From Sphaerobacter sp. (GTDB lineage: Bacteria > Chloroflexota > Chloroflexia > Thermomicrobiales > Thermomicrobiaceae), in NCBI GenBank assembly GCA_029961075.1, contig JASBVL010000090.1, forward strand, positions 1-64,000: 64,000 bases of DNA, written 5' to 3'. The notes under the pieces are model-generated. The model had not been told where the DNA came from. It searched no databases and saw only the letters and a list, made by a program, of their open reading frames with translations. The position numbers were made by a program, and so were the translations under genes. Of the stretch, positions 52,131 through 64,000 are shown piece by piece. Numbering within the stretch: position 1 is the stretch's first letter; every line of letters starts with the position of its first letter.

Positions 52131-52298
52131 TCACCGCAGGCGGGGGACGATGGTGAAGAGCAGGGCCAGGGCCAGGAGCACGACCACGCAGAGGAGCAGG
52201 CCGAACCCAACCCCCAGCACCGCCGCGCGGCGAACCTCGCTCTGCCGCGCGAGCCAGCGCCCCACCCGATCGATGGCGCGCTCCAGGCGTTCCCGCAC
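52131..52298 (-). CDS. Small single-pass membrane protein
   Basis: 55 aa. An amphipathic, basic N-terminal helix (RERLERAIDRVGRWLARQ) is followed by one membrane segment (AVLGVGFGLLLCVVVLLALAL) and a short basic tail. The GTG at 52298 has GGGAGA seven bases upstream. It is divergent from moxR, 93 bases apart. Family not recognised; by design it could be a membrane-bound regulator or assembly factor. Confidence 0.55.
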   Translation of the reverse strand: MRERLERAIDRVGRWLARQSEVRRAAVLGVGFGLLLCVVVLLALALLFTIVPRLR

Positions 52299-52391
52299 TC
52301 GCGTCTCCCTGTCCTTCTGTCCGCGGTCGCCGTGGGTCCGCGCACACGTATGATATAGTGCGCACGAGGGGACATCACCAGGAGGGTTGGC

Positions 52392-53339
52392 GTGGTCGGC
52401 CAGGTCGCGGCGCTGGGCCGCCGCATCATCGACAACGTTGACCGCGTCATCGTCGGCAAGTCCGCCGTGACCGAGCTGGTCCTGGTCGCGCTCCTGTGCG
52501 AGGGGCACGTCCTCATCGAGGATGTCCCGGGGGTCGGCAAGACGACCCTGGCGCGGGCCGTGGCCCGCTCGATCGGGGGTCAGTTCCGGCGCATCCAGTT
52601 CACCCCCGACCTGCTCCCCTCCGACATCAGCGGGATCTCCTACTACAACCCCCAGCGCGGTGAGTTCCAGTTCCGGCCAGGGCCGGTCTTCACCAACATC
52701 CTGCTCGCGGACGAGATCAACCGGGCCACGCCGCGGACCCAGTCGGCCCTGCTCGAGGCGATGGAGGAGCGGACGGTGACGGTCGAGGGCGACACCATGC
52801 CGCTGCCGCGCCCCTTCCTCGTGCTGGCCACCCAGAACCCGATCGAGCTGGAGGGGACCTTCCCGCTGCCGGAGGCGCAGCTCGACCGCTTCCTCCTGCG
52901 GATCGATCTCGGCTACCCGGACGACGCGGAGGAAGCCGAGATGCTGGTCCGCTACCAGACGACCAACCCGCTCGACGAGTTGGCGCCGGTCGCGACCCTG
53001 GACGACCTCCGCGCCGCCGCGGCCGTGTGCCGCACCGTCTACGTGGACGAGGACCTGCGCCGCTACATCACCGGGATCACCCGGGCGACCCGCCAGCACG
53101 AGGCGGTGTCGCTCGGCGTGAGCCCGCGCGGCACCCTGGCCCTGTTCCGCGCCGCGCAGGCGCTCGCGACCCTGCGCGGGCGTGGCTTCGTGCTCCCCGA
53201 CGACATCAAGGAGGTGAGCCGGCCCGTGCTGGTCCATCGGCTGATCCTCAGCCCGGAGGCGCGCCTGCGCGGGCGCGACGCCCGGCAGATCGTCGACGAG
53301 GTGCTGGCCGCCATCGGCGTGCCGGTCGAGCAGGTGTGA
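52392..53339 (+). CDS. MoxR-family AAA+ ATPase
   Basis: 315 aa. Walker A PGVGKTT (46-52), Walker B ILLADEINRA, sensor 1 ATQNPIE, then EAQLDRFL. MoxR ATPases act as chaperones with DUF58/VWA partners. GTG 52392 is preceded by AGGAGGG. DUF58 and DUF4129 genes follow, the standard set, but a repeat element of about 270 bp now fills the gap to DUF58. Confidence 0.93.
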   Translation: MVGQVAALGRRIIDNVDRVIVGKSAVTELVLVALLCEGHVLIEDVPGVGKTTLARAVARSIGGQFRRIQFTPDLLPSDISGISYYNPQRGEFQFRPGPVFTNILLADEINRATPRTQSALLEAMEERTVTVEGDTMPLPRPFLVLATQNPIELEGTFPLPEAQLDRFLLRIDLGYPDDAEEAEMLVRYQTTNPLDELAPVATLDDLRAAAAVCRTVYVDEDLRRYITGITRATRQHEAVSLGVSPRGTLALFRAAQALATLRGRGFVLPDDIKEVSRPVLVHRLILSPEARLRGRDARQIVDEVLAAIGVPVEQV

Positions 53340-53340
53340 G

Positions 53341-53608
53341 GCGTATCGCGTATTGCGTACTGCGTGATGCGTGATGCGTGCTCCGTTCGTCTCCCCTCTC
53401 CCAATCCTGGGAGAGGAGTTGGGGGTGAGAGCTGCTCCGGGAGCCGGCGAGGGCCTCGGGGTGACCCAGCCAAGCCGGCCAAAGCCGGCTGGAGCGTCTC
53501 TCAGTTCCCGTGTGCGAGCCGGGCGGGCGGACCGGCTGGCGCCTGACGCATGACGGGACACGCAACACGGAATACGCACTACGCACTACGCAATACGGAG
53601 TACGCGCC
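53341..53608. repeat. Heptamer-bounded repeat element between moxR and DUF58
   Basis: Six direct 7-bp units GCGTNNY (53341-53382) are followed by a core that opens with CCCCTCTCCC-loop-GGGAGAGG and GGGGGTGAG and contains other hairpins (AGCCGGC-CAAA-GCCGGCT). It ends with nine inverted units ACGSNNN (53546-53608). The two heptamer arrays are in opposite orientation, so the whole element is a long degenerate inverted repeat. The same left part recurs at 63898-64000. No ORF in it is convincing. Confidence 0.8.
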
Positions 53609-53616
53609 ACGACGCC

Positions 53617-54876
53617 ATGCGCAGCCACTTCTTCACCTCCATCTGGCTCTATGGTGCGGCCGCGCTCTTGCTCCTCGGCCTGGCGCTCCGCCAGCCCGCG
53701 CTCGCCATCCTGGCGCTGCTGACGCTCACCACTGCCGGCGGGAGCTGGCTCTGGAGCCGGGTCAGCCTCGCGGGCGTCGCCTACACGCGCAGCCTCTCGG
53801 CGACGCGCGTCTTCGCCGGCGAAACCATCGAGTTGACCGCCAGCGTGGTCAACCGCACCTGGCTGCCGCTCCCCTGGCTCGCGGTGGAGGACCAGATCTC
53901 CGACCGGGTCAAGGTGCGCGAGCGGGAGACCCTCCCCAGCGCCCGCCCGGGGATGACCCTGCTGCGCATCGTGACCGCGGTCCGCTGGTTCGAGCGGGTG
54001 ACCTGGACCTTCCACCTCGATTGCCCCCAGCGCGGCGCCTACACCCTCGGCCCGATCACCCTCCGCTCCGGCGACCTCTTCGGCTTCTTCTCCCGCGAGG
54101 TCCGGCTCGACGACCAGTGCCGCTTCATCGTCTACCCCCGCGTCGTTCCCCTGACCGACCTCGGGCTGCCGGCCTTGCACCCGTTTGGCGAGCGGCGGGT
54201 GCCCCACCATCTGCTCACCGACCCGGCGCGCACCATCGGGGTGCGCGACTACCACCCGGAGGACTCCTTCCGCTTCATCCACTGGAAGGCGACGGCGCGG
54301 ATGCAGGAGGTGCAGGTCAAGGTCTTCGAGCCGATGGTCGCGGTGCACCTCGGCGTCTTCCTCTGCCTGGACACGTTCGAGCGCTACTGGGAGGGGGTGG
54401 ACTACCAGCGGGCCGAGAGCGCCATCGTCGCGGCCGCCTCGATCGCGGCCTACGCGCTCGACCAGCGCTACCTGGTGGGGATGTACGCCAACGGCGTGCT
54501 GGCCGGCTCGGACCAGACGCTGCGGATCCCGGCCGGGCGCGGTCCGGCGCAGCTCCCCGCCATCCTGGAGGGGCTGGCCAAGCTCACGCCGCTCGCCGCG
54601 ACCAACTTCACCCGCCTGCTGCGCCAGGAGGCCGGCCGCTTCCCCTGGGGGAGCACCGTGGTCGTCGTCGCGGCGCTCATGACCCCGGCGCTGACCACCG
54701 AGCTGGCGGCGCTGCTCGTCGCCGGGCACCGGGTCGTCCTCGTCTGCGTCGGCCCCCTGGAGGTGCCCCCGCTGCCCGGCCTGGTGGTCCACACCCTGCC
54801 GGAGAACCTGCTGGGGCCGTCGCCGCCCGACCACCGCTACGCGCTCACCATCGACCTCGGGATGCCGGCGCCATGA
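53617..54876 (+). CDS. DUF58 protein
   Basis: 419 aa. Two N-terminal membrane segments (LYGAAALLLLGLALRQPALAILALLTL), a beta-rich region, then the DUF58 signature VRDYHPEDSFRFIHWKATARM and a VWA-like fold. It is a usual partner of MoxR ATPases and TgpA-type proteins, with poorly known function at the cell envelope. ATG 53617 has no ribosome site at normal distance; the repeat element ends nine bases before it. Expression may therefore be altered. Its stop overlaps the next ATG. Confidence 0.9.
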   Translation: MRSHFFTSIWLYGAAALLLLGLALRQPALAILALLTLTTAGGSWLWSRVSLAGVAYTRSLSATRVFAGETIELTASVVNRTWLPLPWLAVEDQISDRVKVRERETLPSARPGMTLLRIVTAVRWFERVTWTFHLDCPQRGAYTLGPITLRSGDLFGFFSREVRLDDQCRFIVYPRVVPLTDLGLPALHPFGERRVPHHLLTDPARTIGVRDYHPEDSFRFIHWKATARMQEVQVKVFEPMVAVHLGVFLCLDTFERYWEGVDYQRAESAIVAAASIAAYALDQRYLVGMYANGVLAGSDQTLRIPAGRGPAQLPAILEGLAKLTPLAATNFTRLLRQEAGRFPWGSTVVVVAALMTPALTTELAALLVAGHRVVLVCVGPLEVPPLPGLVVHTLPENLLGPSPPDHRYALTIDLGMPAP

Positions 54877-56366
54877 TCGCCCGCGATCCGCTCGGCCTGG
54901 TAACGATCGCCCACGACCTCCGCCGTCGGATCGACTGGCGCGAGGAGATGGTCGCGCTGGCGCTGATGGTGGCCGAGAGCGCCATCGTCTACCTCTACCT
55001 CGGCGGCCTCCTGCCCGCGATCACGCCGCCCTACGCGCCCTTCCCGGGCTGGCTGATCGGGCTGCTGCTGGCGCTCGCCTACGTCGTGCCGCGGCTGCTC
55101 GACGCGCTGCGGGTGTGGGGTGCCCGCTACGAGCTGGTGCTGGCGCTCGCCCTCCTCGCGTCGCTCTTGCTGGCGCTCAAGGTCGCCGCCTTCCCCAGCG
55201 CCCCCTGGCTCGCCACCGGCTGGCTGCGCGGCGCGCTGGACGGCCTCATCGTCCGGCCGAACCCCGCGATCCGCCCGCCGTGGGCCATCGTCGGCGTCGT
55301 CGCCTACGCCTGGTGGCGCGGGCGGACCCGCGCCGAGCCGATGCTGGAGACGACCTACCAGATGCTCCGCTGGGGCACCCTGGCCGCGGCCGGTGGGCTG
55401 CTGCTGGTGCTGCTGGGGGCGCCCGCGGCGTCGCCGATCCGCGAGCGCATGGCCAGCGCCGTGGTGCTCTACTTCGTCGCCGCGCTGGCGGCGGTGAGCC
55501 TGGCGCGCTCCCGCCTGGAGGGACTGCGCAGCGGCTCCCCGCTCGGCCCGCCCTGGCTGGCGACCTTCGCCCTCCCGATCGCCGCCGTCGTGCTCGTGGC
55601 CGTGCTCGCCGCCGGCCTCGTCTCCCGCCACCTGCTGGAGGCGCTGCTCGCGGCCTTTGGCCCCCTCCTCTGGGGCCTCGGCCTGGCCGCGCGGGCGCTG
55701 GTGCTGCTGGTGGCGCTGCTCGCCTTCATCGTGATCTCGCCGGTGCTGTGGCTGCTCGAGCGCACCGGCTTCGGCACCCTGCCGCTGCTGGAGCGGCTCC
55801 CGCGGGCCACGAGCCCGCTGGCGCAGCTCGACCGGGTCGCGCGCGAGGTGCTGCACATCGCCGACCCGGCGCGCTACCTGATCGCCGGGGCCGTGCTCGC
55901 GCTGCTCGGCTCGGCGCTGGTCCGCTACGCCCACCGCCGCCGGCACCGCTGGCGCGACACCGTGGCGGAGCGGCGCGAGTCGGTCCTCGCCTGGGAGGAC
56001 GCGGTCGGCGGGCTGGCCCGCCCGCTGCGGCGCGCCGCCCGGCGCCTCCGTCCCCGGGGCGACCCACTCGCCCATCTGCGCGCCGATCCCCGCTGGGCCC
56101 ACACCCTCGCCATCCGCGAGACCTACATCCGCCTGCTGCGGCGGGGCGCCCGCGCCGGCCTGCCGCGCCCCGCGGACGTCACTCCGGCCGAGTACGCGCG
56201 CCGCCTGGCCGCGCACGCCCCGGACGACGCCGCGGCGATCGCCCAGATCACGGCCCACTACGAAGCCGCCCGCTACCGGGCCGAGCCGGCCACCCCCGAG
56301 GAGGCCGCCGCCGTCCGCGCGGCGTGGGCGGCGCTGACCGGCCGCCCACCCGCCCCGCGCGACTGA
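54873..56366 (+). CDS. Multi-pass membrane protein with C-terminal DUF4129
   Basis: 497 aa. About eight membrane segments over residues 25-380, then a cytoplasmic tail. The stretch IRETYIRLLRRGARAGLPRP...TPAEYARRLA is the DUF4129 pattern found at the C-terminus of transglutaminase TgpA. No transglutaminase Cys-His-Asp domain is present, so only the membrane and tail parts of the usual partner remain or it is encoded elsewhere. It overlaps DUF58 by ATGA. Confidence 0.85.
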   Translation: MIARDPLGLVTIAHDLRRRIDWREEMVALALMVAESAIVYLYLGGLLPAITPPYAPFPGWLIGLLLALAYVVPRLLDALRVWGARYELVLALALLASLLLALKVAAFPSAPWLATGWLRGALDGLIVRPNPAIRPPWAIVGVVAYAWWRGRTRAEPMLETTYQMLRWGTLAAAGGLLLVLLGAPAASPIRERMASAVVLYFVAALAAVSLARSRLEGLRSGSPLGPPWLATFALPIAAVVLVAVLAAGLVSRHLLEALLAAFGPLLWGLGLAARALVLLVALLAFIVISPVLWLLERTGFGTLPLLERLPRATSPLAQLDRVAREVLHIADPARYLIAGAVLALLGSALVRYAHRRRHRWRDTVAERRESVLAWEDAVGGLARPLRRAARRLRPRGDPLAHLRADPRWAHTLAIRETYIRLLRRGARAGLPRPADVTPAEYARRLAAHAPDDAAAIAQITAHYEAARYRAEPATPEEAAAVRAAWAALTGRPPAPRD

Positions 56367-63897: not shown

Positions 63898-64000
63898 ACG
63901 TCGTACGTGATGCGTCACACGTCATGCGTGGGGCGTGGTGCGTGCTGCGTATTGCGTGTTCCCCTCTCCTCCCGCTGGTGGGAGAGGGGGTGGGGGTGAG
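63898..64000 (+). repeat. Left part of a second heptamer-bounded repeat element
   Basis: Nine consecutive 7-bp units RCGTNNN (63898-63960) begin one base after the transpeptidase stop. They are followed at once by CCCCTCTCC-loop-GGGAGAGGGG and TGGGGGTGAG, as in the element at 53341. It is cut by the window end. Confidence 0.8.

Follow-up and report, generated by a model that had tools for sequence, protein, structure and literature searches.

Among described repeats, those nearest in kind to the element analyzed here are convergent heptamers found in Xanthomonas. These GGGAATC or GGGANTN heptamers have about five fixed positions and occur at up to 186 loci, with 70–75 convergent inverted pairs; they lie close behind stop codons, are few in divergent spacers, vary in length, and occupy the same gene context in a sister species in 83% of cases (PMC4692102). 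The Sphaerobacter arrays are likewise degenerate heptamers that form convergent pairs, are intergenic near stops, and are few between divergent genes. They differ in that the unit, GCGTNNY, is without G runs for quadruplexes, and in that a dispersed, flipping hairpin core lies between the arms and a whole-element consensus exists for each species. Degenerate heptanucleotide repeats (TDNGATT, NNTGAGT), of a class that has been replaced over time, are also present in Nostoc, in stem P6b of the trnL group I intron (PMC4476775). That stem resembles the present element in being a stem-loop formed by seven-nucleotide degenerate repeats, but it lies inside a self-splicing intron, whereas the Sphaerobacter element is intergenic between protein genes and has no intron. 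An earlier reading of this DNA (the preliminary description) knew of no named element of the kind, which holds for the exact sequence but not for convergent heptamers (Xanthomonas, PMC4692102) or heptamer stems (Nostoc, PMC4476775).

REP/BIME elements and MITEs are also short, extragenic, palindromic, many-copy and non-coding repeats that are depleted from divergent spacers, and MITEs combine high copy number with terminal inverted repeats; the arms of the Sphaerobacter element differ in being built of 7-bp units that vary in number. In parS of plasmid pSM19035, 7-bp repeats adjoin one another in both direct and inverted orientation and are bound by the protein omega. The parS repeats differ in sequence, belong to a plasmid centromere and have a known cognate protein, whereas none is known for the Sphaerobacter arrays. 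An open-access literature search by sequence words returned nothing relevant, a result that cannot prove the element undescribed, and CRISPR is the only repeat mentioned in the S. thermophilus genome paper (PMC3035262).

In the window (the whole 64,000-nucleotide stretch of DNA that was analyzed), the element between moxR and DUF58 occupies 272 bp at 53341–53612, with a 153-bp core between its arms (Table 1). The 5′ arm reads GCGTATC GCGTATT GCGTACT GCGTGAT GCGTGAT GCGTGCT CCGTTCG, and the 3′ arm, from its outer to its inner end, TCGTGGC GCGTACT CCGTATT GCGTAGT GCGTAGT GCGTATT CCGTGTT GCGTGTC CCGTCAT GCGTCAG. Within the core (53390–53542) the hairpin CTCCCCTCTCCCAATCCTGGGAGAGGAG lies at 53391–53418 and the tail GGGGGTGAG at 53421–53429. 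The six GCGTNNY units first counted in the 5′ arm are joined by one CCGT unit to make seven, and the inverted units number ten rather than nine, ending at 53612 and not 53608. Spacing is exactly seven throughout, and variation falls mostly at unit positions 5 and 6. Three consecutive RCGTNNY units, with one mismatch allowed, gave 16 matches in the window versus 0.62 ± 0.79 in shuffles; the original view of the facing arrays as a single element between the two genes is confirmed, and shuffles give nothing similar. The two arms are 75% complementary over 51 nt, and the element folded as single-stranded DNA gave z = −5.4 relative to shuffled sequence.

Table 1. Positions of the element, its flanking genes and the second copy, numbered in the window.
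Feature	Coordinates	Strand	Description
MoxR-type AAA ATPase (AAA_3)	52392..53339	+	flanking gene
GTGA overlapping moxR stop	53336..53341	+	position of coupled DUF58 start (ATGA) in sister genus g2; 12-codon dead-end frame now follows
5′ arm	53341..53389	+	seven 7-bp units, six GCGTNNY then CCGTTCG, pointing to core
Core part 1	53390..53431	+	hairpin CTCCCCTCTCCC-AATCCT-GGGAGAGGAG, asymmetric tail TTGGGGGTGAGAG; dispersed core repeat common to nearly all copies
Core part 2	53432..53542	.	copy-specific spacer, GCCGGC-type palindrome at 53465-53492
3′ arm	53543..53612	-	ten inverted units, counted by CGT criterion
DUF58 protein	53617..54876	+	flanking gene
Second copy	63898..64000	+	nine-unit 5′ array then same hairpin core, cut by window end

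The second copy lies directly behind a stop codon, and the end of the preceding gene resembles those before the elements at L043 and L065 (paralogues). Open frames at 52131–53579 (−), 53248–54834 (−) and 53550–56366 (+) cross the arrays and encode repeat peptides such as ITHHAVRNTRYA and NTHYALRNTEYA; these long frames are likely false genes made by the repeats.

Two congeners within the genus Sphaerobacter (Chloroflexota), G001 and G002, were compared with the window genome, G000. Both carry the element at the same place between moxR and DUF58, the unit numbers being about 2/5 and 10/4. DUF58 of genus g2, from the same family, starts with an ATGA that overlaps the moxR stop, and about 25 extra codons precede the conserved MRS/ESR start region. 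There are no in-frame start codons between 53554 and the DUF58 ATG, and there is no Shine-Dalgarno sequence at normal spacing before 53617, in agreement with the initial observation that DUF58 is left without a normal ribosome site. On the simplest reading of these sequences, the element would have taken over a coupled moxR-DUF58 start in Sphaerobacter. Since sister genera have a coupled start here, its main effect at this site is probably to uncouple DUF58 translation and to add a 3′-end hairpin. That the element sets DUF58 apart from what lies upstream is supported. We assign it no gene-specific role. The same junction in a genome of another family (G030, L081 1307–1473) has facing arrays whose heptamer, RACAGGY, is unrelated.

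Absence of further copies was to count against the preliminary description; many copies were found, clearly in its favor. Genome searches for four exact units returned 106 matches in G000, 33 in G001 and 47 in G002, and none in the 18 other genomes of the family that were searched, the genus sisters being without GCGTNNY arrays. The 39 stretches of G000 examined for array clusters, together with the window, contain at least 57, of which 43 are two-armed and nearly all of these convergent. Nearly all G000 cores bear the CCCCTCTCCC...GGGAGAGGGG hairpin followed by CCGGGGGTGAGG, and searches for the core alone, tolerating at most three mismatches, gave 82, 159 and 142 matches in G000, G001 and G002, respectively. 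Aligned copies yield one whole-element consensus per species; the copies are thus homologous and not constructed site by site. Unit types are species-specific, with CAT in G001 and G002 and ATT, ACT or GTT in G000. Loci L050 and L051 have in common a unit run, the core and some of the opposite arm and differ in their flanks, while L043 and L065 share the element plus a gene end. A core variant with GGGCTCCGTCCGAGAGGGG replacing GGGAGAGGGG is common in G002 and present at some G001 sites, and a GGGCGGGTACCCGCGTGCGGG variant occurs in G000. The assemblies of G000 and G001 are drafts, and many G001 contigs start or end near the hairpin core (e.g., C44, C48, C88, C118, C161, C288, C299); short-read assemblies therefore seem to break at these repeats.

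A Y1_Tnp (RAYT) protein is present in all six array-bearing genomes versus 22 of 55 others (Fisher p = 0.007). The RAYT gene of G002 (C1:86751–87356, in L112; L324) has inverted copies of a different repeat (GCCCGGGGCTAAAGCC...; GCCCGGGGCTAAAGCCGCCGGGCTGACAAGGCGAAGCCC...) on its two sides, likely a separate REP family; this speaks against mobilization of the exact GCGTNNY element by RAYT, which may still have some part in its spread. The repeat around this gene has more than 100 partial matches in 1.19 Mb.

Genomic context was tabulated over 1.19 Mb of G002 with simple, rough gene calls, so that the figures are approximate. The 57 G002 arrays fall in 39 tandem, 14 convergent and 4 divergent spacers; all G002 spacers of at least 100 bp comprise 283 tandem, 102 convergent and 120 divergent. 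Divergent spacers are depleted in arrays (4/57 versus 120/505, Fisher p = 0.0008). Median distances from the elements are 7 bp to 3′ ends and 74 bp to 5′ ends of genes.

Sites with flanks found on both sides were treated as orthologous, using 1.19 of the 3.99 Mb of G002 and selected contigs of G001. Element sites are old and almost always occupied: array-bearing orthologous sites were occupied in 17/17 and 15/15 cases between G001 and G002, in 15/19 between G000 and G002, and in 10/10 between G000 and G001. The 17 array-bearing pairs of the G001-to-G002 set show 93% identity. Three near-empty sites were without a clean target-site duplication; with so few clean empty sites among relatives and no such duplication found, insertion is not demonstrated. 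Unit number differs between species in 7-bp steps, being equal in 7 of 25 G001–G002 arms and never where G000 was one of the two genomes compared. Orthologous arms of G001 and G002 are more alike than shuffled pairs, whereas those of G000 and G002 are not, which indicates that units have turned over fully within the genus at sites that stay in place.

Turnover leaves part of each unit nearly unchanged. Across Sphaerobacter arms, CGT is conserved at 96–100% and T at position 7 at about 86%, while positions 5 and 6 vary. In gapped unit alignments, divergence is 0–2% at CGT, about 29% at NN and 45% at position 1, as against 16% at third codon positions. The inference that an exact 7-bp unit reflects functional or structural constraint is supported by these values. 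The accompanying statement that this was so "rather than recent copying" is not supported, given the dispersed family, the whole-element consensus, the copies shared by L050 and L051, and the fast turnover of units. T is almost never found at position 5 in Sphaerobacter arms and AA is nearly absent at positions 5–6, although GCGTAAT is frequent in other Chloroflexota. Within an element, the two arms resemble each other no more closely than arms taken from separate elements do, so that the variable positions are not being kept paired. Structural covariation of the arms was absent from these comparisons and was rejected. Identical neighboring units make up 10–21%, about twice the random expectation.

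The interior of the element was found reverse-complemented relative to its flanks in 9 of 24 sites in the comparison of G001 to G002 and in 10 of 22 in that of G002 to G001, as judged by local alignment. With the tail motif alone as the orientation mark, inversion was seen at 7/17 and 7/14 orthologous sites. The best case is L180 (1214–1385), where a core without the dispersed hairpin (TTAGCTTGGGTTCGGACTCGCCATGACGAACC), which is unique sequence, is inverted in G002. At this site the inner arm units moved along with the inverted core and the right outer landmark stayed in place, which makes this an inversion between facing arms and not a re-insertion. In copies that consist of the core alone, such as that at L199, the flip is bounded by other short inverted repeats. 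Template switching of the polymerase at short inverted repeats, with inversion of the spacer, is documented in yeast (PMC8604942).

Period seven is not peculiar to GCGTNNY. Degenerate tandem arrays in these genomes are overwhelmingly of period 7, with 70 in G002 versus 5 for the next commonest period. In 1.19 Mb of G002, period 7 accounts for 40 facing pairs of degenerate arrays and periods 4–6 and 8–12 for 0–2. The 5′ arm is richer in T than in A in 102 of 102 pairs. Among the matches listed in a scan of public genomes, GCGTRNT arrays were found in many Chloroflexota, Kiritimatiellales, Gemmatimonadota, Desulfococcaceae and others, some of them plain perfect repeats. Four exact GCGTRNT units were present in only 8 of 301 Chloroflexota genomes sampled, a patchy distribution on which a general spread through the phylum was rejected. 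Unrelated heptamers (CCAATAY, GCAGATT, CAGTTGG, AGTNGTC) occur at L229, L244, L246, L296, L299, L303 and other loci, often as facing pairs. Some unrelated facing arrays sit on the same contigs as GCGTNNY arrays. A universally GT-rich 5′ arm was rejected, as this holds in Sphaerobacter and in only 18 of 29 pairs of other heptamers; a 5′ arm with more G than C is the better rule, seen in 24 of these 29 non-GCGT facing pairs (20/23 counting one per locus, p = 0.0005). The generality of the period-7 and G-strand rules is only suggested by these counts, because the contigs were chosen by the period-7 pattern. It is conceivable, if rather doubtful, that bacteria share an unrecognized, sequence-independent process that builds exact seven-base facing arrays with the G-richer strand directed centerward, from many unit sequences in many phyla and with continual inversion of the interior.

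Taken together, we consider it fairly probable that the element is a many-copy, non-coding, non-autonomous dispersed palindrome of the REP/MITE-like kind, with remodelled arms and a flipping core. Under this explanation, arms would gain and lose units by replication slippage in steps of 7 nt, template switching of the polymerase from one facing arm to the other would flip the interior, and copies would spread by block copying, in one case along with a duplicated gene. The element would be tolerated or favored just behind stop codons. Frozen CGT beside free NN could mean that pairing or switching needs CGT in register or that a protein reads CGT; we favor the first. Not every observation fits. 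Template switching should homogenize the two arms of an element, but arms within an element are no closer than arms of different elements. Simple slippage should leave many identical neighbors, yet these are limited to the 10–21% noted above, and slippage alone leaves unexplained why the unit vocabulary differs species-wide across all loci.

The main competing reading is that the arrays might be cooperative binding sites, coated by a small protein like omega (ParB-type) of pSM19035 that bridges or insulates genes or organizes the nucleoid. Such a protein would fit the exact 7-bp spacing, the combination of a frozen CGT and free NN, the fixed convergent polarity and the retention of sites across species, and the plasmid system provides a precedent for a heptad array (PMC9499535). 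We nevertheless regard it as unlikely: the unrelated heptamers with the same facing layout on the same contigs would call for many proteins, GCGTNNY arrays are absent from the genus sisters, the unit vocabulary shifts between congeners, and no candidate protein was identified.

Less probable still is a 3′-end RNA element, in which a transcribed hairpin behind the stop codon would act as protector or terminator of the upstream mRNA, with its pairing preserved by selection. Its appeal lies in the location just after stop codons, the avoidance of divergent spacers and the strong fold, obtained with DNA parameters and also in RNA energy. However, the variable unit positions are without covariation between arms, the hairpin is without a T run after it, and a search of 53200–53750 against Rfam gave zero families above the gathering score.

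A plain neutral microsatellite, produced by seven-base slippage followed by unconstrained random mutation, would account for unit turnover and the mild excess of identical neighbors, and an excess of heptamers in bacteria has elsewhere been ascribed to polymerase slippage, according to a passage in the Xanthomonas study (PMC4692102). We judge it very improbable, since it cannot leave CGT at 0–2% beside NN at about 29% in the same units and does not explain a facing layout found only at period 7. Addition of G-rich heptamers to both ends of a break by a telomerase-like reverse transcriptase is scarcely credible: convergent arrays do place the G-rich strand 3′ toward the center, with G exceeding C in the non-GCGT 5′ arms as counted above, but RVT_1 proteins are absent from G000, G001, G002 and G031, the genomes richest in arrays, and an origin by reverse transcriptase is excluded at the PF00078 level.

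An excess of heptamers in bacterial genomes was noticed in 2007 and, by one account given in the Xanthomonas study, has had little follow-up since (PMC4692102). In practical terms, the Sphaerobacter elements seem to interrupt short-read assemblies and are a likely source of long, false open reading frames. With rows that change in length and a middle that flips between sister species, the element preserves a natural history of the growth and turnover of seven-base repeats. It also offers a clean test system, in which loci come in many replicates, flanks are known in sister species, the step is constantly seven, each unit has frozen and free positions, and the middle flips; these elements allow one to ask directly whether the polymerase, a bound protein or the geometry of the hairpin fixes the step at seven.
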